A program made the translations under genes and the position numbers. From a virus: 64,000 nucleotides of DNA. A model generated the notes under the pieces. That model made no database searches. It was not told where the DNA came from and saw only the letters and a list, made by a program, of their open reading frames with translations. This document shows positions 1-33,056 of the stretch, one piece after another; within the stretch, counting starts at the first letter, position 1; each line of letters starts with the position of its first letter. The DNA lies in IMG/VR virus record IMGVR_UViG_3300020021_000003, positions 37,047-101,046 of that record; one strand, 5' to 3'.

Positions 1-78
1 CTTTTACGCGCGATTAAGTATAAGACTCTTGCACGATATTACACCCATCCAACCCCCAATGGGAACACGTGACTAAGC

Positions 79-161
79 GGAAAGTGTGGAGAATCGAACC
101 CACTAGGGCATTAACCCCTACTACATTTCCAATGTAGCTGCTCACCGGTTGCATACTTTCC
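79..161 (-). tRNA. tRNA-Ser(GGA)
   Basis: A 7-bp acceptor stem (GGAAAGT with ACTTTCC), a T-arm with loop TTCGATT, and anticodon loop TTGGAAA in a 5-bp stem give GGA (codon UCC). The long variable arm is as expected for serine. No CCA is encoded. Confidence 0.9.
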
Positions 162-346
162 ATAAGGCCCTTCCCATTTGAGCATCGCCGAGAGGCTTGG
201 GAAGGGGTCGATTAAGCACTATACTAACATCTCCAGAGCGTTCGTGCAACCGATCACTTCTCTGGTCTCAGACTAGCATTTTTCCTGAACATGGCAAAAC
301 CGGCTGCACGTGGTTGTCAGGCAGGCGAGTGAATCACCTGTGCTGC

Positions 347-430
347 GGATGATGTAGGATTTGAACCCACGGAGCTGTTACACTCTCCAGTTTTCAAGAC
401 TGGTGCAATCGGCCGCTCTGCCAATCATCC
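347..430 (-). tRNA. tRNA-Ser(TGA)
   Basis: Acceptor GGATGAT pairs with ATCATCC. Anticodon loop CTTGAAA in stem CCAGT/ACTGG gives TGA (UCA). A long variable arm is present. The 185 bases between this gene and tRNA-Ser(GGA) hold only inverted repeats (such as CCCTTCCCA with TGGGAAGGG) and no gene that I recognise. Confidence 0.9.
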
Positions 431-524
431 ATGCCATACTAGCTTTGTTCTATGACGTCAGCCTATCAGCCGAAACTGGATTCTGGTCAAAAGCAGATCT
501 ACATATGGTTGAACTGCTCGGCGC

Positions 525-610
525 GGAGATAACAGGATTCGAACCTGCGGAGGTTTTACCCTCTCTTCATTAGCAGTGAAGTGCCTTAAGCCGTACTCAG
601 CCACATCTCC
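525..610 (-). tRNA. tRNA-Ser(GCT)
   Basis: Acceptor GGAGATG pairs with TATCTCC (one G-U). Anticodon loop CTGCTAA in stem CTTCA/TGAAG gives GCT (AGC). It has a long variable arm, so all three serine tRNAs here are normal class II molecules. Confidence 0.9.
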
Positions 611-623
611 ATTATTACTACGA

Positions 624-698
624 GCGCATAGTGGGAATCGAACCCCTTGTAACGGCTTTGCAGGCCATCTCCATCCCAGACGAATTAACTCTACGCGC
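624..698 (-). tRNA. tRNA-Cys(GCA)
   Basis: Acceptor GCGCGTA pairs with TATGCGC. Anticodon loop CTGCAAA in stem ATGGC/GCCGT gives GCA. The T-loop is canonical (TTCGATT). Confidence 0.88.
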
Positions 699-722
699 AT
701 AAAGGATTCTGTAGAATCCAGT

Positions 723-801
723 GGAACTGCTGGGATTCGAACCCAGGTGCTGATAACTTCCGACTTGCGGTTTTTACTACCAGACGAAACCAACCAGCCC
801 C
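723..801 (-). tRNA. tRNA-like gene, anticodon unresolved
   Basis: The acceptor (GGGGCTG with CAGTTCC, two G-U) and T-arm (CTGGG, loop TTCGAAT, CCCAG) are clear. The middle does not fold normally. GGTTT/AAACC could form a 5-bp D-stem with a 13-base loop containing GG, but no 5-bp anticodon stem with a 7-base loop and U33 is visible. It may be degenerate, or a tRNA with an unusual core. Confidence 0.55.
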
Positions 802-802
802 G

Positions 803-871
803 CTATATTACACACAGGACAATTACCAGCAGAACTGCTAGTACAAGCCACAGTGCTTCAAGTGCGTTCAT
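803..871 (-). CDS. 22-residue single-span membrane peptide
   Basis: ATG follows a near-perfect ribosome binding site (AAGGAGG, 5 bases upstream). The 22-residue product begins MNALEALW and is otherwise almost entirely aliphatic, ending VIVLCVI, so it should be one membrane helix. Its stop lies 2 bases before the 5' end of the next tRNA. Function unknown; small phage membrane peptides of this type can be holin-like or act on the host envelope. Confidence 0.6.
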   Translation of the reverse strand: MNALEALWLVLAVLLVIVLCVI

Positions 872-936
872 ATTATCCTCCTTGTAGATGCAGGGTACCA
901 AGCCTCCTGCTCCTGGGTCAACGAATAACGTTCCAT
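868..936 (-). CDS. possible 22-residue leader peptide
   Basis: A short reading frame (starts MERYSLTQ, ends STRRII) overlaps the start of the membrane peptide by ATGA, a common sign of coupled translation. The only Shine-Dalgarno-like sequence (CGGAG) touches the ATG, which is too close, so this is weakly supported. Confidence 0.25.
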   Translation of the reverse strand: MERYSLTQEQEAWYPASTRRII

Positions 937-962
937 CTCCGTAGAAATCCCAGCCCTTACGT

Positions 963-1032
963 ACCCGCTGAGGGAATCGAACCCCCGTCTTTGGTGTGTA
1001 AAACCAAGGCCCTCCCATTAGACGAAGCGGGC
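963..1032 (-). tRNA. tRNA-Val(TAC)
   Basis: Acceptor GCCCGCT pairs with AGCGGGT. Anticodon loop TTTACAC in stem TTGGT/ACCAA gives TAC (GUA). T-loop TTCGATT. Confidence 0.9.
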
Positions 1033-1055
1033 AATACCCTTTCGGGCGATACTGC

Positions 1056-1241
1056 TTAAAACAATCCTGTACCTTTTAGCATATTAGCATATAGAATTTC
1101 TATTTCATTTGTATCTAGCCACTGGATCTTTACTATTCGTGATCCTTGCCAGTCGTACTCGTCTTCCAGCACACGAGCCTTGCGGTTACGTGGACCGAAT
1201 GCTCCGTCACCTTCACGGAGAGGTGTACGTCTACCAAACAC
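1056..1241 (-). CDS. hypothetical protein, 61 aa
   Basis: Not recognised. The GTG start at 1241 is chosen because AAGGAG lies 5 bases upstream and the preceding gene stops at 1243 (TAATGTG junction). The longer reading with an upstream ATG would run through the previous gene. The product is charged (FGRRTPLREGDG near the start, then WLDTNEIEILYANML). Probably translated together with the gene before it. Confidence 0.6.
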   Translation of the reverse strand: MFGRRTPLREGDGAFGPRNRKARVLEDEYDWQGSRIVKIQWLDTNEIEILYANMLKGTGLF

Positions 1242-1242
1242 A

Positions 1243-1389
1243 TTATCTCCTTGTAAGCTGTGCTTCAGTAAATAATCTGCCATTGACTTTGTACTTGCAT
1301 AGTCCATGCATGCATTCACGAGCAGTTATCTTACCTTCACCACCCTGATAGGAAACATGGTCTCCGATATTGAATTTATATCTGGACAC
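1243..1389 (-). CDS. hypothetical protein, 48 aa
   Basis: The GTG start at 1389 has AGGAGG 4 bases upstream, the strongest binding site in this stretch. The product (starts SRYKFNIGDHVSYQ after the initiator) has the GDxVxYxGGxGKI pattern of small SH3/KOW-like beta-barrels, but the function is unknown. It forms a two-gene unit with the next gene. Confidence 0.6.
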   Translation of the reverse strand: MSRYKFNIGDHVSYQGGEGKITARECMHGLCKYKVNGRLFTEAQLTRR

Positions 1390-1407
1390 TATACCTCCTG
1401 AGTAGTT

Positions 1408-1487
1408 TGGTGGTATCCCCTGAATTTGAATCAGGAACTTCGTGCTTATGGCCCGATCGGTTAATAGATCTACTGACAATCTACCCA
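1408..1487 (-). pseudogene. degenerate tRNA-like sequence
   Basis: A T-arm (CCTGA, loop TTCAAAT, TCAGG) followed by GGATACC-ACCA looks like a tRNA 3' end with an encoded CCA. No matching 5' acceptor strand is found upstream, and the best anticodon-like hairpin (TAGAT/ATCTA) has a 9-base loop. Probably a decayed tRNA. Confidence 0.35.
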
Positions 1488-1578
1488 ACTAGTACACAAA
1501 CCTTCACTGTCGCTACCACGGCCGATCCACGACGGTTCGTCAGTTTATGCTTTTCACAGCTTACCTACAGAATACCGT

Positions 1579-1650
1579 ACCCCTGACTGGATTCGAACCA
1601 GCAATTTTCGGCTTAGAAGGCCGTTGAGTTGTCCCTTACTCTACAGAGGC
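1579..1650 (-). tRNA. tRNA-Arg(TCT)
   Basis: Acceptor GCCTCTG pairs with CAGGGGT. Anticodon loop CTTCTAA gives TCT (AGA). Its 3' end is repeated exactly (28 bases, 1576-1603) at 2265-2292 beside an HNH gene. Confidence 0.88.
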
Positions 1651-1737
1651 ATACGTAACAGACCTATTGTATCCGCTTCTCCTTCAGTCTGCTACTTCCA
1701 ATTCGGGGAAGGAGCTGACGGCCCCAAATTTAAAACT

Positions 1738-2175
1738 TTAATCCCACCAGCCGTACCAATCGTACTTGGAGTCAGTATAGATGTCAACTTCTTCCCAGTC
1801 TCCGTCCAGCAAAGCTTCTCTGATCTGCTGTCTCACTTTAGAGCGGATAGCTCCGTTTGTCAACTGCTTGATATCCTTGTTGCTTCGGATGTTCGGGTAG
1901 TACTCAAGCCAGTGACAGCAGTGCTTATCGTCTCGGTATCTTGAATCGTTAGGACTTTCGGGAAGGTCCAGAGTACAGTCTACATACTCAGACCAGCTAT
2001 TGTAAATACCAGCCATGTACCAGACTACTTCGTTGCCGTAGCCGTCCTTACGCATGATAGGCTCTTCACCGATTCGTTCCCTATGGGTAACCAAGTGATG
2101 ATGGTACGCATATCGGTCCATCTTAGGATCATTCTTGAGAACCCAATAAGGACGGTCCTTGAGTGTGCGAGACAT
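1738..2175 (-). CDS. hypothetical protein, 145 aa
   Basis: Not recognised. ATG follows GGAGGTTTGT. The N-terminus (MSRTLKDRPYWVLKNDPKM) resembles phage proteins that begin with a short RDRPYWV-type motif. A His-rich stretch (YAYHHHLVTHRE) and CCHWLEYYPN follow, so metal binding is possible. Rich in Tyr, Trp and Asp. It stands alone between tRNA genes. Confidence 0.75.
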   Translation of the reverse strand: MSRTLKDRPYWVLKNDPKMDRYAYHHHLVTHRERIGEEPIMRKDGYGNEVVWYMAGIYNSWSEYVDCTLDLPESPNDSRYRDDKHCCHWLEYYPNIRSNKDIKQLTNGAIRSKVRQQIREALLDGDWEEVDIYTDSKYDWYGWWD

Positions 2176-2208
2176 ACAAACCTCCGATAGTGCTAGGAGT
2201 TCTTACGT

Positions 2209-2243
2209 GTCGGTAGAGGGATTCGAACCCCCGACTTCCTCAC
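2209..2243 (-). pseudogene. 3' half of a split tRNA, probably Arg(ACG)
   Basis: Contains a T-arm (GGGGG, loop TTCGAAT, CCCTC) and the acceptor strand TACCGAC. This exactly complements GTCGGTA, the 5' acceptor strand found 560 bases upstream at 2803-2809. GTGAG just before the variable region could pair with CTTGC of the 5' half (two G-U). Read together, the halves make a full tRNA-Arg(ACG). Confidence 0.55.
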
Positions 2244-2264
2244 CAACTGAGTAGACGCTTTTAA

Positions 2265-2292
2265 CGTACCCCTGACTGGATTCGAACCAGCA
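2265..2292 (-). repeat. 28-bp copy of the tRNA-Arg(TCT) 3' end
   Basis: Identical over 28 bases to 1576-1603, covering the T-arm, 3' acceptor strand and a few flanking bases. The HNH reading frame just upstream contains GCCTCTG (2336-2342), the partner 5' acceptor strand, but the D- and anticodon arms between them are not normal. Confidence 0.8.
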
Positions 2293-2300
2293 TGTGTCCA

Positions 2301-2765
2301 TTAACCTTTCAACGCGTTCGTAGCGCGAGGGTATACAGAGGCAGGACCAGTCCACCATCCAAACTGCTCAAAGGTCTTTCTCCTGTGACAGTTTGCACAT
2401 AGTACCTGGCATTTATCAATCTCAGCTTGAACAGTCTCAATCTTAGAGACATTCTTGGCTGCTTCACTAATGTTGAACGATTTGATAGAAGGATCTAGAT
2501 GATCAAACTCTAGCATACGTGGATCAGTTTCACCACAGTGAACACAAGGATGATCAAGTAAGTAGCTCCAGACGTACTCTCGTATTATCTGTATATATCT
2601 TAGATCGTTCTTTCTAGCCTTGTCAAGATAGACTTGCTTGTTAGCTGTGTAATGATCCCTGTTGTATTGGTTGTGGCAGGGCTTACACATTGAGCTTTTC
2701 GAAGCAAACTCACTTAATGGCTTTTCGATACTGCACTTGCTACATGTCTTCATGCTATTAATCAT
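2301..2765 (-). CDS. HNH homing endonuclease within a tRNA locus
   Basis: 154-residue HNH nuclease. An N-terminal zinc ribbon (CSKCSIEKPLSEF, then CKPCHNQYNRDHY) precedes the catalytic part: CVHCGETDP, LEFDHLDPSIKSFNIS and CQVLCANCHRRKTFEQFGWW. This matches the small freestanding HNH family of phages. The gene lies between the two halves of a tRNA. The 9-base anticodon-loop sequence CTACGAACG occurs just before the start (2770-2778) and near the 3' end of the frame (2315-2323). More A+T-rich than its neighbours, consistent with recent arrival. Mobility is inferred. Confidence 0.88.
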   Translation of the reverse strand: MINSMKTCSKCSIEKPLSEFASKSSMCKPCHNQYNRDHYTANKQVYLDKARKNDLRYIQIIREYVWSYLLDHPCVHCGETDPRMLEFDHLDPSIKSFNISEAAKNVSKIETVQAEIDKCQVLCANCHRRKTFEQFGWWTGPASVYPRATNALKG

Positions 2766-2770
2766 AGCAC

Positions 2771-2809
2771 GTTCGTAGGCAAGTGCTCTATCCGCTGAGC
2801 TATACCGAC
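2771..2809 (-). pseudogene. 5' half of a split tRNA-Arg(ACG)
   Basis: GTCGGTA, then TA, then a textbook D-arm (GCTC, AGCGGATA, GAGC), then CTTGC and anticodon loop CTACGAA (ACG, codon CGU). The expected 3' anticodon strand GCAAG is missing; the sequence runs into the HNH gene start. The matching 3' half is at 2209-2243. Confidence 0.6.
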
Positions 2810-2831
2810 AGAGCCCCGAAGGGCTTGATAC

Positions 2832-3116
2832 TTAGTATTGAATTTGTTCTCCGTTGATATAGAGAACATATCCCTTGGGAAGCCCAATGTCAACTCGTCC
2901 AGCCCGTTGCTTTACAGTGACGCCACCAGCCTGAGTAATGCTGATGCTGCTGTTGTCACTGAATACATTATTGTAACTTCCAGCCCCAGCAGTACGATTA
3001 CCCGTTCCTCTTACCTTAACACTACTATTTGTTCCAATAGCGTTGCCAGTGATATTCCCACCAGCTTGAACGATCGTGCTGTTCTTGCCGCCACGAGCCC
3101 TCTGAAAAATCTGCAC
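2832..3116 (-). CDS. hypothetical Gly/Asn-rich protein, 94 aa
   Basis: Not recognised. The GTG start at 3116 has AGGAG 4 bases upstream and follows the stop of the preceding gene by 7 bases, so the two are probably cotranscribed. Repetitive and polar (TIVQAGGNITGNAIGTN, SSISITQAGGVTVKQRAG), suggesting a beta-rich or right-handed-repeat fold, with a C-terminal GYVLYINGEQ strand. A GCCC..GGGC hairpin follows the stop. Confidence 0.65.
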   Translation of the reverse strand: MQIFQRARGGKNSTIVQAGGNITGNAIGTNSSVKVRGTGNRTAGAGSYNNVFSDNSSISITQAGGVTVKQRAGRVDIGLPKGYVLYINGEQIQY

Positions 3117-3123
3117 TGTGCTC

Positions 3124-3609
3124 CTATTCAGTGAACGGAATCAACTGTCCTGGTGTTACTAGGCTTGGCAGTCTGTCATCAGTGAAGAGATGAACACCGG
3201 CCATGCTGTACACGTAGTCCACAATCTGAGAACAGATCATGTGCTTTGATTTCACTACTCTAGCAGTCAAGAAGGGCACTGGCAAGTGGAACCTCTTGGC
3301 CGCAATAGCAAAGTAGTCCAGGAAGCTGTATGGGACGCCCTTGAGAGCTGCTGCGTAGTCTATGATGTCCTTGCGCTGTTCGATCGCCAGGGGCACCGTA
3401 GAGACCCGTACAGAGGCATACTTGGAGGCATCAGAGACGATCGCACCACCAGGCATAGCTTCAAGGATCTTTCCGTTGTACATGTAGATGAAAGCGTGCT
3501 CATAGTTCTTGAAGCCGTCTCCGTTAAGCCATTGGCCTAATCGGATGAGAAAGCCTACTCCACCAGGAATACTTGTTAAGCCGAAATCTCCTGGCTGGGC
3601 GTCTCTCAT
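3124..3609 (-). CDS. NlpC/P60-superfamily cysteine hydrolase
   Basis: 161 aa. QPGDFGLTS near the start, YEHAFIYMYNGKILEAM (a His in the typical NlpC/P60 His position) and HMICSQIVDYVYSMAG (the Cys of the family) match permuted NlpC/P60-like proteins found in many actinophages. These hydrolyse amide or ester bonds, often in peptidoglycan or lipid substrates. No signal peptide is visible. The binding site AGGAGAG precedes the ATG. It could act in virion assembly or late in infection; substrate unknown. Confidence 0.75.
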   Translation of the reverse strand: MRDAQPGDFGLTSIPGGVGFLIRLGQWLNGDGFKNYEHAFIYMYNGKILEAMPGGAIVSDASKYASVRVSTVPLAIEQRKDIIDYAAALKGVPYSFLDYFAIAAKRFHLPVPFLTARVVKSKHMICSQIVDYVYSMAGVHLFTDDRLPSLVTPGQLIPFTE

Positions 3610-3627
3610 ATCTCTCCTCGTTAAAGT

Positions 3628-3699
3628 GCTGGCAGCAGGGATCGAACCCGCAGAATTTCGATTAAAAGTCGAATACCGTAGCCATTTGGTTATACCAGC
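3628..3699 (-). tRNA. tRNA-Lys(TTT)
   Basis: Acceptor GCTGGTA pairs with TGCCAGC. Anticodon loop CTTTTAA in stem TTCGA/TCGAA gives TTT (AAA). A GCCC-TTTC-GGGC hairpin lies just upstream. Confidence 0.92.
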
Positions 3700-3725
3700 A
3701 TACAGCCCTTTCGGGCCGGTCGAAC

Positions 3726-4199
3726 TTACTTGCCTGTACCAGCCTGTGCAGTGATGGTAGGAACGCCACCCTGTCCATCAGGGACATAGATAACAGTGTT
3801 GTTCTTTCCAGACTGTGCAATAGCCTGTAGCGCCTGAATCTGCTCCCATTGAAGATACATGGGGGTCAGGGTCTTGGCAATCTCATCCTGTGCCCTACGG
3901 ACACCTACAGCCTGCTGGAAACGAATGTCAGCCTGCTGTTCAGTAACCTGAAGCTGTTGCTTCTGGTTGGAAATTTCGATCTCAGTCACTTGGACCTTGT
4001 TGTTCGCGGCGATAATCGCGTTCTTAGCAGCGTTGTTTGCCTTGATGGTAGCATTCTGTGCATTAGTATTCGCATTCTTAGTACTCTGTGAACGGTTGAA
4101 ATCACTGCAACCAGCAACACCACCAGTCAAAATACCACCTGCAACCACAACGACGACTAGCCAACTAGCAGCAACAGCAAGGGGATTGGACTGTGCCAT
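3726..4199 (-). CDS. phage lipoprotein with coiled-coil stalk
   Basis: 157 aa. The N-terminal hydrophobic stretch ends in GGVAGC, a plausible lipobox, so the mature protein would begin at a lipidated Cys. An Asn/Ala/Lys/Gln-rich segment follows (NANTNAQNATIKANNAA) with strong coiled-coil character, then a Gly/Val-rich tail. It probably sits on the outer face of the host membrane; superinfection exclusion is one possible role, by analogy only. Confidence 0.7.
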   Translation of the reverse strand: MAQSNPLAVAASWLVVVVVAGGILTGGVAGCSDFNRSQSTKNANTNAQNATIKANNAAKNAIIAANNKVQVTEIEISNQKQQLQVTEQQADIRFQQAVGVRRAQDEIAKTLTPMYLQWEQIQALQAIAQSGKNNTVIYVPDGQGGVPTITAQAGTGK

Positions 4200-4237
4200 A
4201 TTCTTTTTGCCTCCGAATTAGTACTCCGTTATAACGA

Positions 4238-4307
4238 GCCTCACCAGGGAATCGGACCCTGTTCCACGCCTTACGAAAGCGTTATTCTACCAGTGAACTA
4301 ATGAGGC
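4238..4307 (-). tRNA. tRNA-Thr(CGT)
   Basis: Acceptor GCCTCAT pairs with GTGAGGC. Anticodon loop TTCGTAA in stem ACGCT/GGCGT gives CGT (ACG). The T-loop is TCCGATT, one base from canonical. Confidence 0.88.
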
Positions 4308-4354
4308 AGAGCCGGGCGGGTACCATGCCTGGTATGCATTCCCTAACCCAACGA

Positions 4355-4426
4355 GCCTTATCTCGGAGTCGAACCGAGTCTCTCTCCGTACCAAGGAGAA
4401 GTGCTAACCATAGTCACTAATAAGGC
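4355..4426 (-). tRNA. tRNA-Thr(GGT)
   Basis: A perfect acceptor stem (GCCTTAT with ATAAGGC). Anticodon loop TTGGTAC in stem TCTCC/GGAGA gives GGT (ACC). T-loop TTCGACT. Confidence 0.92.
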
Positions 4427-4440
4427 ATTACTACTTACGT

Positions 4441-4510
4441 ACTCCTCCGGGGTATCGAACCCCGTTCCGCTGGGTAAGAGCCAGCTACATCACCTTAATG
4501 CTTGAGGAGC
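4441..4510 (-). tRNA. tRNA-Lys(CTT)
   Basis: Acceptor GCTCCTC pairs with GAGGAGT. Anticodon loop CTCTTAC in stem GCTGG/CCAGC gives CTT (AAG). Confidence 0.92.
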
Positions 4511-4542
4511 ATAAGCCTTACTGTTTTAGTAAGGCTGCCAAA

Positions 4543-4788
4543 CTATGAGAATCCTTTACCGTTCATGTGCTTATCGCAGAAGGAGTTACCCTCAGAAGCT
4601 TCGTCCTTACATGTCCGCTTCTCACAGATGTAAGGAGTAGAACCAGCAGTCCACTTCTCCCGATCTTCCGCAGTCCAGCCCTTTGGATCAGGAGGACCAA
4701 GTTTGATGCCGTGAATATTTGTCTTTGACTTCCCCGGCTTAGCAGGTGGCTCTGCACCTGCTGGGTACTTCGGTGTCCAGAATCCCAT
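4543..4788 (-). CDS. small Cys-containing protein, 81 aa
   Basis: Not recognised. ATG follows GGAGG with 7-base spacing. The N-terminal half is Pro/Lys-rich and probably flexible. The C-terminal half has CEKRTCKDEASEGNSFCDKH, a C-x4-C-x9-C-x2-H zinc-knuckle-like pattern. It is flanked by tRNA genes. Confidence 0.7.
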   Translation of the reverse strand: MGFWTPKYPAGAEPPAKPGKSKTNIHGIKLGPPDPKGWTAEDREKWTAGSTPYICEKRTCKDEASEGNSFCDKHMNGKGFS

Positions 4789-4820
4789 AGTTTTGCCTCC
4801 TATGTCAATGAATAAAACGT

Positions 4821-4889
4821 GGAGCTAGTCGGAATCGAACCGACTGCAACGACTTTGCAAAAGTAGTCCGCTACCTCAGCGTTAGCCCC
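4821..4889 (-). tRNA. tRNA-Ala(TGC)
   Basis: Acceptor GGGGCTA pairs with TAGCTCC. The loop TTTGCAA read with U33 gives TGC (GCA). The anticodon stem has one mismatch. Reading the loop one base over would give GCA (Cys), but with worse pairing. Confidence 0.78.
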
Positions 4890-5060
4890 ATTGTAGGTGG
4901 TGTCCCCGTTATCACTGCACGACGACTCCAAGATAAGCATTAGCCCAGTGATACTCAGCATATCTTATCCCAGAAGGCATCCACATACTCGTTGCCCTTC
5001 GGTGTTCTTATATCTTAGCAGATCAACTAGTGGCTAGTCAACCTGTGGTACGTTATAAGG

Positions 5061-5097
5061 GTAAAAATAATCTCCACCAGTATTTCTACGGTGGAGA
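5061..5097 (-). terminator. rho-independent terminator
   Basis: An 8-bp stem (TCTCCACC with GGTGGAGA) with an 11-base loop is followed on the minus strand by TTATTTTT. It would end transcripts from the tRNA-Asn side. The neighbouring 4,890-5,060 holds no gene that I recognise. Confidence 0.7.
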
Positions 5098-5107
5098 GGA
5101 TTAAGGC

Positions 5108-5178
5108 TCCCACAGCTGGATTCGAACCAACAACCTTGGAGTTAACAGCTCCCTGCTCTGCCATTGAGCTATGCGGGA
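5108..5178 (-). tRNA. tRNA-Asn(GTT)
   Basis: Acceptor TCCCGCA pairs with TGTGGGA. D-arm GCTC/GAGC. Anticodon loop CTGTTAA gives GTT (AAC). Confidence 0.92.
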
Positions 5179-5263
5179 AAAACCTGAACCACAAGGGAAC
5201 AGGTGGGTTATAACTTACTACTTAACATGATACTCGAAGTTGTTTTCTCATGTCAAGCAAAGC

Positions 5264-5331
5264 ACGCCCCGTAGGAATCGAACCCACGCTTAGAGGTTTG
5301 GAATCTCTAGTACTACCATTATACGAGAGGC
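5264..5331 (-). tRNA. tRNA-Trp(CCA)
   Basis: Loop TTCCAAA with U33 gives CCA (UGG). The acceptor stem GCCTCTC/GGGGCGT has one C-C mismatch, and the top pair of the anticodon stem is open. The T-arm is canonical. Confidence 0.8.
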
Positions 5332-5378
5332 ATAAGTTGGTTCCGTTGTTCATGCCCAACGGTTTCCTAAAAGCTCGT

Positions 5379-5451
5379 ACGGGTGGAGGGACTCGAACCC
5401 CCGACGCATGGTTTCTAAGACCACGTCCTCTAGCCACTGGGATACACCCGC
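5379..5451 (-). tRNA. class I tRNA-Leu(TAG)
   Basis: Acceptor GCGGGTG pairs with CACCCGT. Anticodon loop CTTAGAA in stem GTGGT/ACCAT gives TAG (CUA). The variable region is only five bases (GCGTC), whereas bacterial leucine tRNAs normally have a long variable arm. The discriminator base is A, as LeuRS requires. Confidence 0.85.
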
Positions 5452-5517
5452 ATACTGGACTACCTACGATTAAGTTGTATACCTGGAGCTTATCACACGT
5501 TACAACGGTTGTCCAGT

Positions 5518-5589
5518 AGTTCTAGTCGGACTCGAACCGACACTGTTTCGATTTTAAGTCGAATGCCTCTGCCATTGGGCTATAGAACC
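5518..5589 (-). tRNA. class I tRNA-Leu(TAA)
   Basis: Acceptor GGTTCTA pairs with TAGAACT. Anticodon loop CTTAAAA in stem TTCGA/TCGAA gives TAA (UUA). The variable region is short (ACAGT). Discriminator A. UUA is the rare codon read by bldA in Streptomyces. Confidence 0.88.
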
Positions 5590-5642
5590 ATAGATCTACT
5601 AGGAGTGTTCTAGTTCTGTGTTTATACTTCCGTTCAATACGT

Positions 5643-5715
5643 ACTCCAGGTCGGACTTGAACCGACACTAGCACAGTTTTTGAGACTGTGTCCTCTGCCA
5701 TTGGGATACTGGAGC
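5643..5715 (-). tRNA. class I tRNA-Leu(CAA)
   Basis: Acceptor GCTCCAG pairs with CTGGAGT. Anticodon loop CTCAAAA in stem ACAGT/ACTGT gives CAA (UUG). The variable region is short and the discriminator is A. The D-arm closely matches that of the neighbouring Leu(TAG) and Leu(TAA), suggesting one ancestor. The stretch to 5,954 has no recognisable gene. Confidence 0.87.
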
Positions 5716-5954
5716 ATAAGGTGAGGGTCTGGAACCATTGTCCAGTCTCACCACACAGGTCTTTAGCTTTTAGTCGGGTCAACGCTTTCCACTTACTGTA
5801 CCCCGGAAGTACCATCCACGTCAAGCTGTCCGTGCCAGGAGTTACTGTGCAGAACCTAAAAACTATTCGATGGGAAAGCACGTTCGTAGCATATTACAGG
5901 GGCGGTAAAACCGATTACAATCGCTAGCAGATTACCCAGACCATCGAATAAAGA

Positions 5955-6028
5955 GCCCCATGTCGGATTCGAACCGACGACCTGCGCTTTACAAGAGCGC
6001 TGCTCTGACCGGACTGAGCTAACAGGGC
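5955..6028 (-). tRNA. tRNA-Thr(TGT)
   Basis: Acceptor GCCCTGT pairs with ATGGGGC. Anticodon loop CTTGTAA in the perfect stem GCGCT/AGCGC gives TGT (ACA). Confidence 0.93.
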
Positions 6029-6093
6029 AATCCCACTATATCCTATTACCCAGCGCAAGTGGTCAACGCCAGAACCCGTATTAGGGGGTTATA

Positions 6094-6396
6094 TTAGGCA
6101 GTACCAGTTGCGGTAATTGCCCAGTCTGTGTTCAGGTTGACTGTGAAGTCAGTTGGTAGGTTGTAAACGCTACTGTTGTTCAACTGGAATGTTACCAGAC
6201 CATCTCCAGCGCCGGTACCAGGTGGTAGAGGAGCTGCGAAGATTGCACGAACAGTAGTAGGATAACCTACACCAGAACCAGAAGCAGGAGTTGGGTAAAC
6301 GTACCCGTGTCCGTCAGCACAAAGGACACCTACGACCTGAGTACCCACTGCTGGAGTTGTAGCTGTGAACTTAGCTACAGAATATGTAAAAGCCAT
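6094..6396 (-). CDS. small structural-type protein, 100 aa
   Basis: Not recognised. ATG follows AGGAG. The protein is rich in Ala, Thr, Gly, Val and Pro, with few charges (TTPAVGTQVVGVLCADGHG, LPPGTGAGDGLVTFQLNNSS). This composition is typical of beta-sandwich phage decoration or head-fibre proteins. It lies alone between tRNA-Thr and tRNA-Glu. Confidence 0.65.
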   Translation of the reverse strand: MAFTYSVAKFTATTPAVGTQVVGVLCADGHGYVYPTPASGSGVGYPTTVRAIFAAPLPPGTGAGDGLVTFQLNNSSVYNLPTDFTVNLNTDWAITATGTA

Positions 6397-6474
6397 TTGT
6401 TCTCCTAGGAGTTTAGAAATTGCCGCTATAGCAACTTAATTCTACCACCCTTAGAAGATATTAAATTGTGGAGC

Positions 6475-6545
6475 ACCCCCAGTGAGAATTGAACTCACTC
6501 CTCAGGCTTGAAAGGCCAGTGTACTAACCAATATACTATGGGGAC
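6475..6545 (-). tRNA. tRNA-Glu(TTC)
   Basis: Acceptor GTCCCCA pairs with TGGGGGT. Anticodon loop CTTTCAA gives TTC (GAA). The T-loop is TTCAATT. The upstream 6,546-6,748 contains hairpins (such as CTCAGG..CCTGAG) but no gene that I recognise. Confidence 0.88.
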
Positions 6546-6748
6546 AAAAGCCCTGCCAGTTCCTGAGAACGACAGGGAGCAATCTCAGGTAGCGAGCCTG
6601 AGTATAAAACAGTCCTTGGGGCTATCCATCCCTTAACTGCACTGAAAAGTCGAACATAGGCAGCGTATTCCAATTTTCGCTAACACAACCCACTACAACC
6701 CCTCCAGGGCATGGCCATTGCTTTGGAACCTATGCAGATAGCTAACGT

Positions 6749-6821
6749 ACTCCAGACGGGATTCGAACCCGCAATCTTCACCTTGAGAGGGTGACGAGAT
6801 AACCGCTTACTCTACTGGAGC
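6749..6821 (-). tRNA. tRNA-Glu(CTC)
   Basis: Acceptor GCTCCAG pairs with CTGGAGT. Anticodon loop CTCTCAA in stem TCACC/GGTGA gives CTC (GAG). Confidence 0.92.
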
Positions 6822-6939
6822 ATACACCAGGGCCGTTTCCATGGCAACCCTGGTTTCACCTGTGCTCCCCGTTAGGATAGGCTAGGGTCTTCCCGCCCTA
6901 GTAGGTATCACAGCATCCATGGCGCTATGAGATTCAAGT

Positions 6940-7080
6940 CTAGAATTTCTTGGGACGCTTTTCCATTTCAGCCCGAATCTTCTTTAGTTCGAGCTTAGCT
7001 TGTAGCTTGGCTTTCACTCGGGAAATGGGACTATCTAGGATAGCCTGCCATTTCTTCTCGTAAATCTTCAGATCACTCAT
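6940..7080 (-). CDS. basic helical protein, 46 aa
   Basis: A short open frame from ATG at 7080 to TAG at 6940. It is Lys/Arg-rich and helical throughout (SDLKIYEKKWQAILDS, then VKAKLQAKLELKKIRAEMEK). It could bind nucleic acid, or be a small coiled coil. It fills the gap between tRNA-Asp and tRNA-Glu with few bases to spare. No clear Shine-Dalgarno sequence was seen. Confidence 0.5.
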   Translation of the reverse strand: MSDLKIYEKKWQAILDSPISRVKAKLQAKLELKKIRAEMEKRPKKF

Positions 7081-7103
7081 GGGTTTGTATGTGTAGTCCA
7101 CGT

Positions 7104-7174
7104 CAACCCAACGGGAGTCGAACCCGCTCTAACACCGTGACAGGGTGTCGTGCGCACCGGTACACTATGGATCG
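7104..7174 (-). tRNA. tRNA-Asp(GTC)
   Basis: Acceptor CGATCCA pairs with TGGGTTG. Anticodon loop CTGTCAC in stem ACACC/GGTGT gives GTC (GAC). T-loop TTCGACT. Confidence 0.88.
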
Positions 7175-7209
7175 AATACGAGAAGTTTACCTGCTCTCGC
7201 TCAGGATGT

Positions 7210-7521
7210 CTAGTACTTAGGCCACACAACATCTGGTGTTACTGAAGTAACCGTACCATTCTTGATGACTGCTCGCTCGACGTCCAAGCTGTCCTCACCT
7301 TCACGCTCGATTACCAAGTAGTTGTCTGGATAGAGCGTAGCAAGGTCTTGAAGGTCTGTCAACCAGTAATACCACTTGGTAGCGTCATAACCCTGGATAC
7401 CATTACCGTAGTCTTCCCAACCAGGATGACCCCAGTCCTTCTCATCTCCTAAATCATTTAAGACATTGAGAATATCGGGAATATCAGTATCGATAACTTC
7501 GAATGTTGAATAGTAACCCAT
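7210..7521 (-). CDS. hypothetical acidic protein, 103 aa
   Basis: Not recognised. The start MGYYSTFEV is chosen because GGAGG sits 6 bases upstream; an ATG four codons earlier overlaps that site. The protein is acidic and rich in Trp and Tyr (DEKDWGHPGWEDYGNG, TKWYYWLTDLQDL), a composition shared with several small proteins at 58-63 kb. Members of this kind are common and uncharacterised in large actinophages. Confidence 0.75.
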   Translation of the reverse strand: MGYYSTFEVIDTDIPDILNVLNDLGDEKDWGHPGWEDYGNGIQGYDATKWYYWLTDLQDLATLYPDNYLVIEREGEDSLDVERAVIKNGTVTSVTPDVVWPKY

Positions 7522-7547
7522 AGTTGCCTCCATAGATTGTAGGATTT

Positions 7548-7639
7548 TCGTAGAGTGGGACTTGAACCCACATCCGTTACTACCCAGTCGGGTGCACCTT
7601 TACTAGAAGGTCTCGTCTGCCAATTGCTAATATCTACGA
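7548..7639 (-). tRNA. class II tRNA, anticodon unresolved
   Basis: A perfect acceptor stem (TCGTAGA with TCTACGA), a canonical T-arm and a long variable arm (ACCC-GACT-GGGT hairpin). The anticodon stem ACCTT/AAGGT closes a six-base loop, CTAGTA, one base short. Tyr(GTA) or Leu(TAG) are possible readings, and Tyr is otherwise absent here. Confidence 0.65.
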
Positions 7640-7645
7640 AAAAGC

Positions 7646-7717
7646 TGGAGATGTAGGATTCGAACCTACACTTTCCTGATTCAAAGTCAGGTGGGCTGCC
7701 AATTACCCCAATCTCCA
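7646..7717 (-). tRNA. tRNA-Gln(TTG)
   Basis: A perfect acceptor TGGAGAT/ATCTCCA. Anticodon loop CTTTGAA in stem CCTGA/TCAGG gives TTG (CAA). The upstream 7,718-7,949 holds no gene that I recognise. Confidence 0.93.
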
Positions 7718-7949
7718 ATTAATTACTTAGTTTACACAGGTGCGGTCGGGTTTACCCCGATCCACCGGCCTTCATCCACATCCTCCGTAGTCTGCGACTA
7801 CTCCTCAACTAAGCAAGTGTTTGACGTGTGTGGCTCTACCTTAAAGGGTAGCCCCAGCTCTTTCCTTATCTTATCGCCACTTTCCACACTTTTACGTACG
7901 TTATTATGTGTGTTCCATATTGACTACTTCCGGAATTCTGTACGTCAGC

Positions 7950-8019
7950 TCCCCGACCTGGATTCGAACCAAGTCTAGCGGCTTCAGAGACCGCTGTGCT
8001 GCCGTTACACCATCGGGGA
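7950..8019 (-). tRNA. tRNA-Gln(CTG)
   Basis: A perfect acceptor TCCCCGA/TCGGGGA. Anticodon loop CTCTGAA in stem GCGGT/GCCGC gives CTG (CAG). Confidence 0.93.
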
Positions 8020-8077
8020 ATAAAGCGGTATTTATTTGGTTTTTCACCAAGAGGCGAACCGCAGAACCTCATTGCGT

Positions 8078-8147
8078 ACCGTATGCCGGAATCGGACCGG
8101 CGAACTCTGTTTGGAAGACAGATATGTTACCTCTACATCAATACGGC
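8078..8147 (-). tRNA. tRNA-Gly(TCC)
   Basis: Acceptor GCCGTAT pairs with ATACGGT. Anticodon loop CTTCCAA in stem TCTGT/ACAGA gives TCC (GGA). T-loop TCCGATT. Confidence 0.9.
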
Positions 8148-8273
8148 ATTGGGAAGGGCTAACCTAACTTCACATTAGGCTCTTTTACTTTACGCACCCA
8201 ACGATAACGCAAAACCCCAAAAGGGTAGGTGGGAGCAGGAAATCGGACTCGCACCGACAATCTCTGCCTCAGT

Positions 8274-8345
8274 GGCCCATTCCGCACTCGCAGCGGACGA
8301 TCTCAAGCTTATGAGGCTTGCGAGACACTATTTCTCTATATGGGC
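8274..8345 (-). tRNA. atypical tRNA-Met(CAT)
   Basis: A perfect anticodon stem CAAGC/GCTTG with loop CTCATAA gives CAT. D-stem GAGA/TCTC. The T-arm TCCGC/GCGGA has the loop TGCGAGT instead of TTCGANT. The acceptor strands GCCCAT and ATGGGC pair only if one base bulges. A second T-arm-like hairpin with the same loop follows at 8241-8257. Confidence 0.6.
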
Positions 8346-8386
8346 ATGAATTGCAGACCTAAGACTCGATCTGATACAATTAAAAC

Positions 8387-8977
8387 ATGATTATACTAAC
8401 CTGTCAAGCCTGCAACCTTGACTTTCAGCGCAAGACCAGCCAGCATAATAGTAATCTAAAGAGAGGAAGAAAACTTATAGCCTGCTCACGTGATTGTCTA
8501 ACAATACTACAAACAAAACCTAAAGTCGAATATCACTGTGAGGAATGTAACACTATATTTTCTAGAAAGAAAAGTAATAAAGATTTTTGTAGATTTTGTT
8601 CAACATCATGTTCTGCTAAATATACTACTAGAATACGATTTAAGGATTATGTATCTACAGCTAAATCATATGTAAAGAAACCTAAGTCGATTAATACCAC
8701 TACATTACAAGATTTAAAAGATAAGTATTCAATATCTCAATATCATGCAAAAATTAGAGGTTGGTCTAGACAAGTGTACAAAGATTCGGGTAGACCATTA
8801 TGCTGTTATAACTGCGGCTATGATCTACACGTAGATATTTGTCATATACAGGACGTCAAGAGTTTTCCTATGACTACTCTAGTATCTGTTGTTAATGCCC
8901 CAGATAATTTAATAGCTCTAGATAAAAGGTGCCACTGGGAATTTGACAATGGATATCTTGAGTTGAGCCCAGTGTAG
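8387..8977 (+). CDS. HNH homing endonuclease, opposite strand to the tRNAs
   Basis: 196 aa. Two N-terminal zinc-finger-like segments (CQACNLDF, then CSRDC; CEECNTIFSRKKS, then CRFC) precede a C-terminal nuclease part: CCYNCGYDLHVDICHIQDV, then NLIALDKRCHWEFDNGYL. This is the HNH pattern with the first His in DICHI and a final His in CHWEF. It is A+T-rich, runs against all its neighbours, and has no clear Shine-Dalgarno sequence, though TACAAT upstream could be a -10 box. These are signs of an independently acquired mobile gene. Confidence 0.82.
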   Translation: MIILTCQACNLDFQRKTSQHNSNLKRGRKLIACSRDCLTILQTKPKVEYHCEECNTIFSRKKSNKDFCRFCSTSCSAKYTTRIRFKDYVSTAKSYVKKPKSINTTTLQDLKDKYSISQYHAKIRGWSRQVYKDSGRPLCCYNCGYDLHVDICHIQDVKSFPMTTLVSVVNAPDNLIALDKRCHWEFDNGYLELSPV

Positions 8978-9000
8978 AAGCATTCTACCATCCTGCGAGT

Positions 9001-9071
9001 AGTGCATGGGGGAATCGAACCACCGACGAAGAGGATATGAATCTCTCGTTCTACCACTGAACTAATGCACC
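9001..9071 (-). tRNA. tRNA-Met(CAT)
   Basis: Acceptor GGTGCAT pairs with ATGCACT. Loop TTCATAT with U33 gives CAT. The anticodon stem (AGAGA/CCTCT) and T-stem each have one mismatch. It could be elongator Met or Ile2 (lysidine-modified). Confidence 0.8.
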
Positions 9072-9077
9072 ATTAAT

Positions 9078-9149
9078 ATTGCGGGCAGGATTCGTACCTG
9101 CGAACACCTTCGCTCTTGGCTAGTATGCATTGATACGCATCACCGCAAT
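9078..9149 (-). tRNA. tRNA-like gene, anticodon unresolved
   Basis: A perfect acceptor stem (ATTGCGG with CCGCAAT), T-arm GCAGG/CCTGC with loop TACGAAT, and a possible D-stem ATGC/GCAT. The region expected to hold the anticodon (CTAGCCAAGAGCGAAGG) forms no proper stem and lacks U33. It is either degenerate or folds unusually. Confidence 0.5.
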
Positions 9150-9156
9150 TGTGGTC

Positions 9157-9216
9157 GGTCCTGAATCTAATCAAAGATTCCAACACCCCAATGGATCAGA
9201 AAGGGATTTACGGACC
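9157..9216. other. 60-base inverted-repeat element between tRNAs
   Basis: GGTCC and GGACC close a 60-base segment. It contains a second stem, GAATCT/AGATTC. It is shorter than a tRNA and has no TTC-type T-loop. It might be a truncated tRNA or a processing or termination hairpin. Confidence 0.25.
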
Positions 9217-9219
9217 AGT

Positions 9220-9291
9220 GGCTCCCCCCGGATTTGAACCGAGATACATCGGGCTTCAACCGATTGCTCTACCAAGTTGAGCTAAAGAGCC
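9220..9291 (-). tRNA. tRNA-Phe(GAA)
   Basis: Acceptor GGCTCTT pairs with GGGAGCC. D-arm GCTC/GAGC. Anticodon loop TTGAAGC in stem ATCGG/CCGAT gives GAA (UUC). T-loop TTCAAAT. Confidence 0.92.
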
Positions 9292-9369
9292 AGTGAGTTA
9301 CTTACTTGTATTTAGCATCGTATCTATTATGTGATTTGGTGATGTCTATACATTGATCATAACTCTAGT

Positions 9370-9440
9370 CTAATGCCGGGGTAACGCTCCCCGTGTCTTC
9401 GGTTTCCAAAACCGACGGATTACTTTCTTCCTCGCACTAG
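9370..9440 (-). tRNA. tRNA-Pro(TGG) with aberrant T-loop
   Basis: Acceptor CTAGTGC pairs with GCATTAG. Anticodon loop TTTGGAA in the perfect stem TCGGT/ACCGA gives TGG (CCA). The T-stem is a perfect CGGGG/CCCCG, but the loop is AGCGTTA, lacking the conserved TTC. The D-region is A/G-rich and lacks the usual GG. Confidence 0.55.
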
Positions 9441-9453
9441 ATTAATACTACGT

Positions 9454-9523
9454 CGGGATAGGGAGAATCGAACTCCCGCTGCTAGTTCCCAAAACTAGCG
9501 CGCTACCATTACGCGATATCCCG
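9454..9523 (-). tRNA. tRNA-Pro(TGG)
   Basis: A perfect acceptor CGGGATA/TATCCCG, with the C1-G72 pair typical of bacterial proline tRNAs. Anticodon loop TTTGGGA in stem CTAGT/ACTAG gives TGG. It has the same anticodon as the aberrant neighbour. Confidence 0.92.
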
Positions 9524-31574: not shown

Positions 31575-33056
31575 TTAGTACTCTCCAAGAATTTCTGCAT
31601 CCATTATTCCTAATTGTTCTACCGCGAGTTCTGGCGAGATTGCTGCTGGCAGCGCTGAGAAAGACTGATTGGTCATATCGCCGAATAAATTGCTGACCAT
31701 CGACATCTGACCCTGCTGCTTTGCAGTCACAGTAAGTGAAAAGCCTTCCTGCTCCATATCGTGCTTGGTCTTCATAAGCTTTCCCAAACGGTCGATTTCA
31801 CTGGATAGGTTAGGATCTGCGTATCCTCCTTCAGTGTCTTCGGCCATTTTCATGAACAAAACACGCTGTGCCTGCATCTCTACAAGCGTATCCATAAGGG
31901 AAGTGACCTGTTCCTTCGTACGGATGACGATAGGAATATCATAGGCACAAGTACTGTTCGGTTCAAACATAGGGCACTTGGCAGCAAGGAAACAGGTATC
32001 GCAGATACGCATGGACTCACTGCGCGTCTTCACCTTGGAGATCTCTACATCCTCATAGAGCCCGGTATCCTTGTTCTTTACTTTATTCGTCTCTGTATCG
32101 AAAGCCAGGAGAGGAATAGGACGCATCTGAGAAGGATCTCTGCGGGTAGGAGTTGGCAGTCTGTTCTGCACCCTTTCAAGGTCAGTACCAACTTGGTCAG
32201 TATCTAATTCCGTAAAGTCCTCATCGGGCATTTCGGTAGTGATAGTTACTCCTGTACGGTTTAGTGATGCAATTAGTTTCTTCCAGGACCACAATGATAC
32301 ACGAAGCATCTCCTGTGAGTCGTCTGCATTGATCTTAGCCAAGTCGAAACCGGCAGAAGTAAAGGTAGAACGCTCCTTCTTACGCGACTGGTCCTTCATC
32401 GACTTGGGATATCTCTTCAACTGATTATGAGACCAGACGATAGTGTCCCCGAATCTAGCGGGAGAAGTCCACGAAGTAGAGGATACAGACTCCCATTTAA
32501 CGGCCTTCATAAGATCAGGCTTGGTCATGGACAGACCATGGAGTTTTACTCCGGACCTGGCCAGACGGTTAAGTACGGGAACGAGATCTCTTCCATTGAG
32601 AAGAGTCTGAGGAATTCCGACACGGCCGAACCGCTCTGCAAGGGAGTTGAGATCGTCCAATCCGTCGTCCCCATGCCATATTGGGAGAAACTTGTCGAAC
32701 GCGACATCTCGCAGGGTATCCCTTTGCTCCTCAAGAAATCCAGGACCCAGATGAATTGAGTCAAACTCTCCGTAGAGTTCGATACGAGAGATATTTTCGC
32801 CAACCCACCGATAATAATCAGCTGCAAGCGATCTAAGTTCATCATCTGTATACTTATGCTCCTTTGCGTCATTTATTGTATGGCACCCCGAGTCAACGAA
32901 TATATTAAAGGTGCTGTCGAATTTCTTATCCAGTTGCCAGAGGTTCTTCACTCTCTGGCGCATTCCCATAAAGTTCAGGCTTACATCCTCCACACCCATT
33001 TCCAGCATAAGCCGGGCATAAGTGGGAAGGTGTAAGCCTTGCTGATAGAGCTTCAC
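31575..33056 (-). CDS. TGT/DpdA-like TIM-barrel protein, 493 aa
   Basis: The N-terminal half reads like a phage TIM-barrel related to tRNA-guanine transglycosylase: NIFVDSGCHTIND, ELYGEFDSIHLGPGFLEEQR, FLPIWHGDDGLDDLNSLAER, GVKLHGLSMTKPDLMKAVKW and ESVSSTSWT. In that superfamily, Asp residues and a substrate pocket exchange guanine for a deazapurine in RNA or DNA. The C-terminal third has a Cys cluster (RICDTCFLAAKCPMFEPNS, then TCAYDI) and a long helix. I assign the fold by pattern. Activity on DNA, on tRNA, or neither, is open. Confidence 0.5.
   Translation of the reverse strand: MKLYQQGLHLPTYARLMLEMGVEDVSLNFMGMRQRVKNLWQLDKKFDSTFNIFVDSGCHTINDAKEHKYTDDELRSLAADYYRWVGENISRIELYGEFDSIHLGPGFLEEQRDTLRDVAFDKFLPIWHGDDGLDDLNSLAERFGRVGIPQTLLNGRDLVPVLNRLARSGVKLHGLSMTKPDLMKAVKWESVSSTSWTSPARFGDTIVWSHNQLKRYPKSMKDQSRKKERSTFTSAGFDLAKINADDSQEMLRVSLWSWKKLIASLNRTGVTITTEMPDEDFTELDTDQVGTDLERVQNRLPTPTRRDPSQMRPIPLLAFDTETNKVKNKDTGLYEDVEISKVKTRSESMRICDTCFLAAKCPMFEPNSTCAYDIPIVIRTKEQVTSLMDTLVEMQAQRVLFMKMAEDTEGGYADPNLSSEIDRLGKLMKTKHDMEQEGFSLTVTAKQQGQMSMVSNLFGDMTNQSFSALPAAISPELAVEQLGIMDAEILGEY

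Follow-up and report, generated by a model that had tools for sequence, protein, structure and literature searches.

Three leucine tRNAs without a long variable arm in the tRNA array of a virus related to Streptomyces phages

Textbooks describe tRNA-Leu as a class II tRNA in bacteria. For E. coli LeuRS, a review names A73, A15-U48, G18G19 and A20a as the elements on which the enzyme depends, reports that sequence and folding of the variable arm are uncorrelated with leucylation and that arm-free variants are still active, and adds that the tRNA charged by LeuRS of human mitochondria has no arm (PMC9976931). With regard to mycobacteria, a comparative study remarks in passing that a tRNA cluster, regarded as a product of horizontal transfer, includes a tRNA-Leu(TAG) whose variable loop is short (PMC6582537). 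A study of MenT3 mentions long variable loops in some M. tuberculosis tRNAs, "especially" Leu-2, 3 and 5 (PMC11541572), which would fit a short form of the two remaining leucine tRNAs of this species, as seen in Mycolicibacterium. Beyond this remark and the implicit statement in the MenT3 study, a search of the literature outside subscription journals returned no published account of how arm-less tRNA-Leu is distributed in bacteria. Arm-less tRNA-Leu is a known kind of molecule that has been little described.

The stretch of DNA analyzed here (the window, 64,000 nucleotides) is part of a 101,046-base IMG/VR virus record and starts with a minus-strand tRNA array, the leucine tRNAs of which sit between those for Trp and Thr (Table 1). 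The closest named relatives of the record are the Streptomyces phages BRock, Alone3, LuckySocke, GiJojo and pSt2308, to which its DNA polymerase is 60-62% identical over the full length and its RecA-like protein 57-59%, and local differences aside the gene order of the array is that of Alone3 and BRock. Since Streptomyces phages are its closest named relatives, the host of this virus is likely actinobacterial. A large protein further along the window matches the phage queuine tRNA-ribosyltransferase family phrog_887, a member of which is also present in the BRock annotation.

Table 1. Positions of the RNA and protein features discussed (in the window unless a locus is named)
Feature	Position	Strand	Evidence
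tRNA array around the leucine tRNAs	77..9523	minus	ARAGORN, 26 genes in window
Serine tRNAs of the array, long-armed	77-161, 345-430, 523-610		ARAGORN
abiF RNA family match	169-204	minus	RF03085, 39.6 bits (gathering 37)
Possible tRNA-Cys(GCA) with U73	about 626-700	minus	read by eye
~81-nt RNA matching both ends of the tmRNA model	719-801	minus	RF00023, 48.4 bits
Weak tRNA-Arg(ACG)-like match	2267-2342	minus	25 bits
tRNA-Leu(UAG), arm-less	5377/5378-5451	minus	ARAGORN; Rfam RF00005 49.7 bits; structural parse
tRNA-Leu(UAA), arm-less	5516/5517-5589	minus	ARAGORN; Rfam RF00005 62.9 bits; structural parse; identity comparison
tRNA-Leu(CAA), arm-less	5641/5642-5715	minus	ARAGORN; Rfam RF00005 46.9 bits; structural parse; identity comparison
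Protein matching queuine tRNA-ribosyltransferase family	31575-33056	minus	phrog_887
~81-nt RNA of the same kind, L453	2141-2221	minus	RF00023, 64.5 bits
~81-nt RNA of the same kind, L474	17025-17105	plus	RF00023, 57.4 bits
~81-nt RNA of the same kind, L475	18357-18437	plus	RF00023, 61.0 bits

The three leucine tRNAs of the array are real, intact and arm-less. Rfam RF00005 covers each of them over the full model and leaves no space for an arm, so that the covariance models bear out the original observation, and a canonical class II tRNA-Leu with an overlooked long arm was ruled out by the spans obtained with ARAGORN and Rfam. Structural parsing gave a fully paired acceptor stem (7/7) and anticodon stem (5/5), a 7-nt anticodon loop and a three-pair D stem with positions 13 and 22 unpaired in all three, and their folding z-scores were weak (-0.8 to -2.1). 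The UAG tRNA carries the variable region GCGTC, a TCC/GGA D stem, a G15:C48 pair and the anticodon loop CTTAGAA, the UAA tRNA the variable region ACAGT, a GCC/GGC D stem, A15:U48 and the loop CTTAAAA, and the CAA tRNA the variable region GCTAGT, a TCC/GGA D stem, A15:U48 and the loop CTCAAAA. The preliminary description had given all three a five-base variable region and A73; A73 and the lack of an arm were found throughout and all variable regions fall within 4-7 nt, but the five bases apply to the UAG and UAA tRNAs and that of the CAA tRNA measures six. Its further statement that the serine tRNAs of the same array keep normal long arms agrees with the ARAGORN calls for all three of them. Two of the leucine tRNAs have an anticodon reading UUA/UUG (UAA and CAA), while the third has UAG and is hence not filed as a UUR tRNA. 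The first pair is G1:U72 in all three; among phage tRNAs it was seen in 45% of those for leucine and in 10% of the others.

Several further RNAs were noticed in or near the array. Both ends of the tmRNA model are matched by an RNA of about 81 nt, not called by ARAGORN, that lacks nearly 300 middle positions of the model including the tag-coding part. In the window as well as in BRock, GiJojo and pSt2308 it is located close to the Ser(GCT)/Val tRNAs, and the copies have a GAAAGCCGCACGCGG-like stretch in common. This may be a conserved, tag-less mini-tmRNA-like RNA and perhaps of greater interest than the leucine tRNAs. The abiF family match adjoins tRNA-Ser(GGA), and the possible tRNA-Cys(GCA) received no ARAGORN call.

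The short form also occurs in bacterial chromosomes. In a complete Mycolicibacterium chromosome from which all 46 tRNAs were recovered, the sole TAA and the sole CAA tRNA are arm-less (variable regions CAAGT and CCAGT; A73), while the GAG, CAG and TAG leucine tRNAs are long-armed. These bacteria use the standard genetic code, and Mycolicibacterium therefore reads UUA and UUG as leucine by means of arm-less tRNAs. Among 100 actinobacterial genomes, 71 had a matching UAA tRNA, of which 22 were arm-less and 49 long-armed, with a pattern that admits both arm forms and one match per genome. In a Streptomyces genome (G118), for which part of the 68 tRNAs was read, an arm-less CAA tRNA is present and TAA is represented by one tRNA of each form; the second, arm-less tRNA-Leu(UAA) (L466, loop CTTAAAC) is found beside the long-armed bldA-like one (L464) and could be of interest for bldA/UUA regulation. 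When 84,980 prokaryote genomes were scanned with a pattern for arm-less tRNAs with leucine anticodons, at least 120 were obtained, and all those listed proved to be leucine tRNAs, had a variable region of 5 nt and came mostly from actinobacteria; as the pattern demanded part of a leucine-type D loop, the scan is no measure of D-arm conservation. The arm-less form as a feature of phages only was thereby ruled out. The general premise that bacterial tRNA-Leu is normally class II accordingly holds only in part and fails for the UUR-reading tRNAs of many actinobacteria.

Because many actinobacteria have the short form as their normal UUA/UUG leucine tRNA and phages commonly carry it, the three tRNAs are most likely subject to ordinary leucine charging with the code unchanged. 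To judge from sequence comparison, they are very probably leucine tRNAs in the actinobacterial short form for UUA/UUG that would be charged with leucine by the host LeuRS. The host enzyme would recognize A73 together with a leucine-type core consisting of a D stem of three pairs that leaves 13 and 22 unpaired, a GG-Y-A-G-A D loop and a 15:48 pair, and would have no need of the missing arm. The tRNAs would provide decoding of UUA, UUG and CUA during infection of an actinobacterial host that is probably GC-rich.

The identity elements are in line with this reading. Among 171 distinct arm-less leucine tRNAs of phages, A73 was present in 170, A14 in 164 and A15:U48 in 147, and 13-22 was paired in 8; the corresponding counts for 79 long-armed phage leucine tRNAs were 77, 77, 78 and 1. 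Non-leucine class I tRNAs differ, with 13-22 paired in 1312 of 1602. As arm-less and long-armed leucine tRNAs agree at these positions and non-leucine class I tRNAs deviate at 13-22, the common element is the leucine core rather than the general class I form. A73 was also found in 130/130 cellular arm-less leucine tRNAs. Two of the three window tRNAs retain the published E. coli determinants (A73, D-loop core and 15:48 pair), with the proviso that these rules may not hold for an actinobacterial LeuRS. The preliminary description had considered charging by the host LeuRS in a non-standard way; without an arm such charging would appear non-standard only against the textbook expectation, given that the E. 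coli enzyme reportedly does without it (PMC9976931).

The origin of each tRNA was assessed by comparing the core, comprising the D arm, variable region and T arm and excluding the anticodon stem and loop. The core of the UAA tRNA reached 98% identity with arm-less Leu(UAA) from actinobacterial chromosomes, compared to 66% with the best cellular long-armed leucine tRNA and 83% with the best tRNA of another kind, which suggests descent from an actinobacterial tRNA-Leu(UUR). The CAA tRNA probably has the same ancestry, with core identities of up to 88% to actinobacterial chromosomal tRNA-Leu(CAA)/(UAA). The shared origin that had been proposed from similar D-arms thus gains support for these two and is uncertain for the UAG tRNA, the core of which is also near that of a phage Arg tRNA. 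We infer that the UAG tRNA either belongs to this leucine group with a changed anticodon or is another tRNA that was remodelled. It is the least certain of the three, and real doubt attaches to it only. In a rather unlikely alternative, the UAA and CAA tRNAs are ordinary leucine tRNAs, whereas the UAG tRNA was remodelled from a tRNA-Arg or another class I tRNA and is in decay or poorly charged. Its closest neighbor over the whole sequence is indeed the Alone3 tRNA-Arg(ACG) (79%), with which it has the T arm and the G15:C48 pair in common, and in three sister phages (BRock, GiJojo and pSt2308) its place is taken by a UAG tRNA with a long arm. On the other hand, its stems are intact, it has A73 and a leucine-like D stem that leaves 13 and 22 unpaired, its core is slightly nearer to cellular arm-less leucine tRNA (86%, against 83% for the Arg tRNA), and G15:C48 is known from arm-less leucine tRNAs as well, being present in 1/130 of the cellular and 5/171 of the phage ones.

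The preliminary description had also raised charging by another synthetase and, with it, recoding of UUA, UUG and CUA. In favor of such recoding in the proteins of the phage, the missing canonical arm and, in the UAG tRNA, the missing A15:U48 pair could be cited. Comparison with related phages gave it no support. When 38 non-overlapping ORFs of the window were aligned to BRock, the TAG and CAA tRNAs of which are long-armed, UUA/UUG/CUA positions coincided with leucine in 78/133 cases and CUU/CUC/CUG positions in 199/336 (59% vs 59%; Fisher p = 0.92). In well-conserved neighborhoods leucine was found at 38/55 and, for the control leucine codons, at 113/166, and no amino acid other than leucine stood out at UUA/UUG/CUA in this alignment. 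Alone3, a relative with possibly shared biology, was used in the same way and the result was that obtained with BRock. Recoding by these tRNAs was rejected on this basis. In addition, A73 and the leucine core are kept, a complete mycobacterial chromosome has arm-less tRNAs as its only ones for UAA and CAA, long-armed leucine tRNAs occupy the same place in sister phages, and a search of the possibly incomplete 101-kb record for class Ia (PF00133) and class IIa (PF00587) synthetase domains returned no match, with 14/14 control genomes positive. Taken together, charging by a synthetase other than LeuRS is extremely improbable.

Leucine tRNAs without an arm also proved to be common in other phages. 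In IMG/VR loci picked for an unrelated tRNA (Asn), 21/62 leucine tRNAs were arm-less, and the matches listed from a pattern scan of IMG/VR include a UAA form whose variable region has 6 nt. All three of the TAA, TAG and CAA tRNAs of Lactobacillus phage LP65 are arm-less, as are both leucine tRNAs found in E. coli phage wV8 (TAG and CAA), and further examples are present in Bacillus, Gordonia, Serratia and cyanobacterial phages. The CAA tRNA of the window was matched in 280 phage records, mostly Felixounavirus-like, in 277/280 over at least 80% of its length. The reverse case was seen as well, in that tRNAs of IMG/VR phage loci L197, L142, L192, L165, L227 and L229 have long variable regions by parse together with an anticodon for Asn, Ile(UAU), Met, Thr or Gly.

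Within the group of sister phages, the interval between Trp and Thr holds a TAG and a CAA tRNA that are both long-armed in BRock and both arm-less in Alone3, a long-armed TAG and an arm-less CAA tRNA in GiJojo and pSt2308, and the arm-less TAG, TAA and CAA tRNAs in the window. The class I form in related phages, which with normal leucine charging had been named beforehand as a finding that would refute the original reading, was seen, as to form, in Alone3 (UAG and CAA) and in GiJojo and pSt2308 (CAA). Such a swap of long and short forms within one phage group argues that both do the same job, and leucine tRNAs exchanged in the same place constitute a natural test of what LeuRS requires. The swaps at one syntenic place, together with arm-less forms in phages of unrelated hosts and the dependence of MenT3 of M. 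tuberculosis on the serine variable arm (PMC11541572), could also be taken to mean that arm loss is selected in phages, either to evade host nucleases or toxins recognizing long-armed tRNAs or to reduce serine mischarging. This is improbable, as the serine tRNAs of the window retain their arms and in actinobacteria the short form is simply that of the host. In a broader and likewise unlikely version, arm-less tRNA-Leu would be a widespread and largely unrecognized alternative form in bacteria and phages, and phages of unrelated hosts would have gained it repeatedly and exchanged it for the long-armed form at one locus, since LeuRS can dispense with the arm and tRNAs lacking it escape arm-recognizing defences or toxins. 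The data indicate that a sizeable share of actinobacteria and many phages read UUA/UUG by arm-less leucine tRNAs. As these are common in both, the length of the variable arm is an unsafe marker of recoding or of tRNA misannotation.

Compared to known systems, the leucine tRNAs of the window have their syntenic place in common with the leucine pair of Alone3, BRock, GiJojo and pSt2308, to which the UAA tRNA is an addition. The absence of a long arm is shared with animal mitochondrial tRNA-Leu, which is charged by LeuRS via A73 and A14 (PMC9976931) but belongs to an organellar system with its own LeuRS. The tRNA-Leu(UAG) of the mycobacterial cluster (PMC6582537) likewise combines a UAG anticodon and a short variable loop within a mobile tRNA cluster; it resides, however, in bacterial chromosomes and was mentioned without a function. 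The arm-less chromosomal Leu(UAA) and Leu(CAA) tRNAs of actinobacteria (Mycolicibacterium L415/L439, Gordonia, Nocardia and Rhodococcus; Streptomyces CAA, L459) have in common with those of the window A73 and the leucine D arm, with the UAG and UAA tRNAs the 5-nt variable region, and with the UAA and CAA tRNAs A15:U48. In contrast, the G1:U72 first pair is a feature of the three phage copies, and the UAG tRNA, arm-less in the phage, is long-armed in the examined Mycolicibacterium and Streptomyces genomes.
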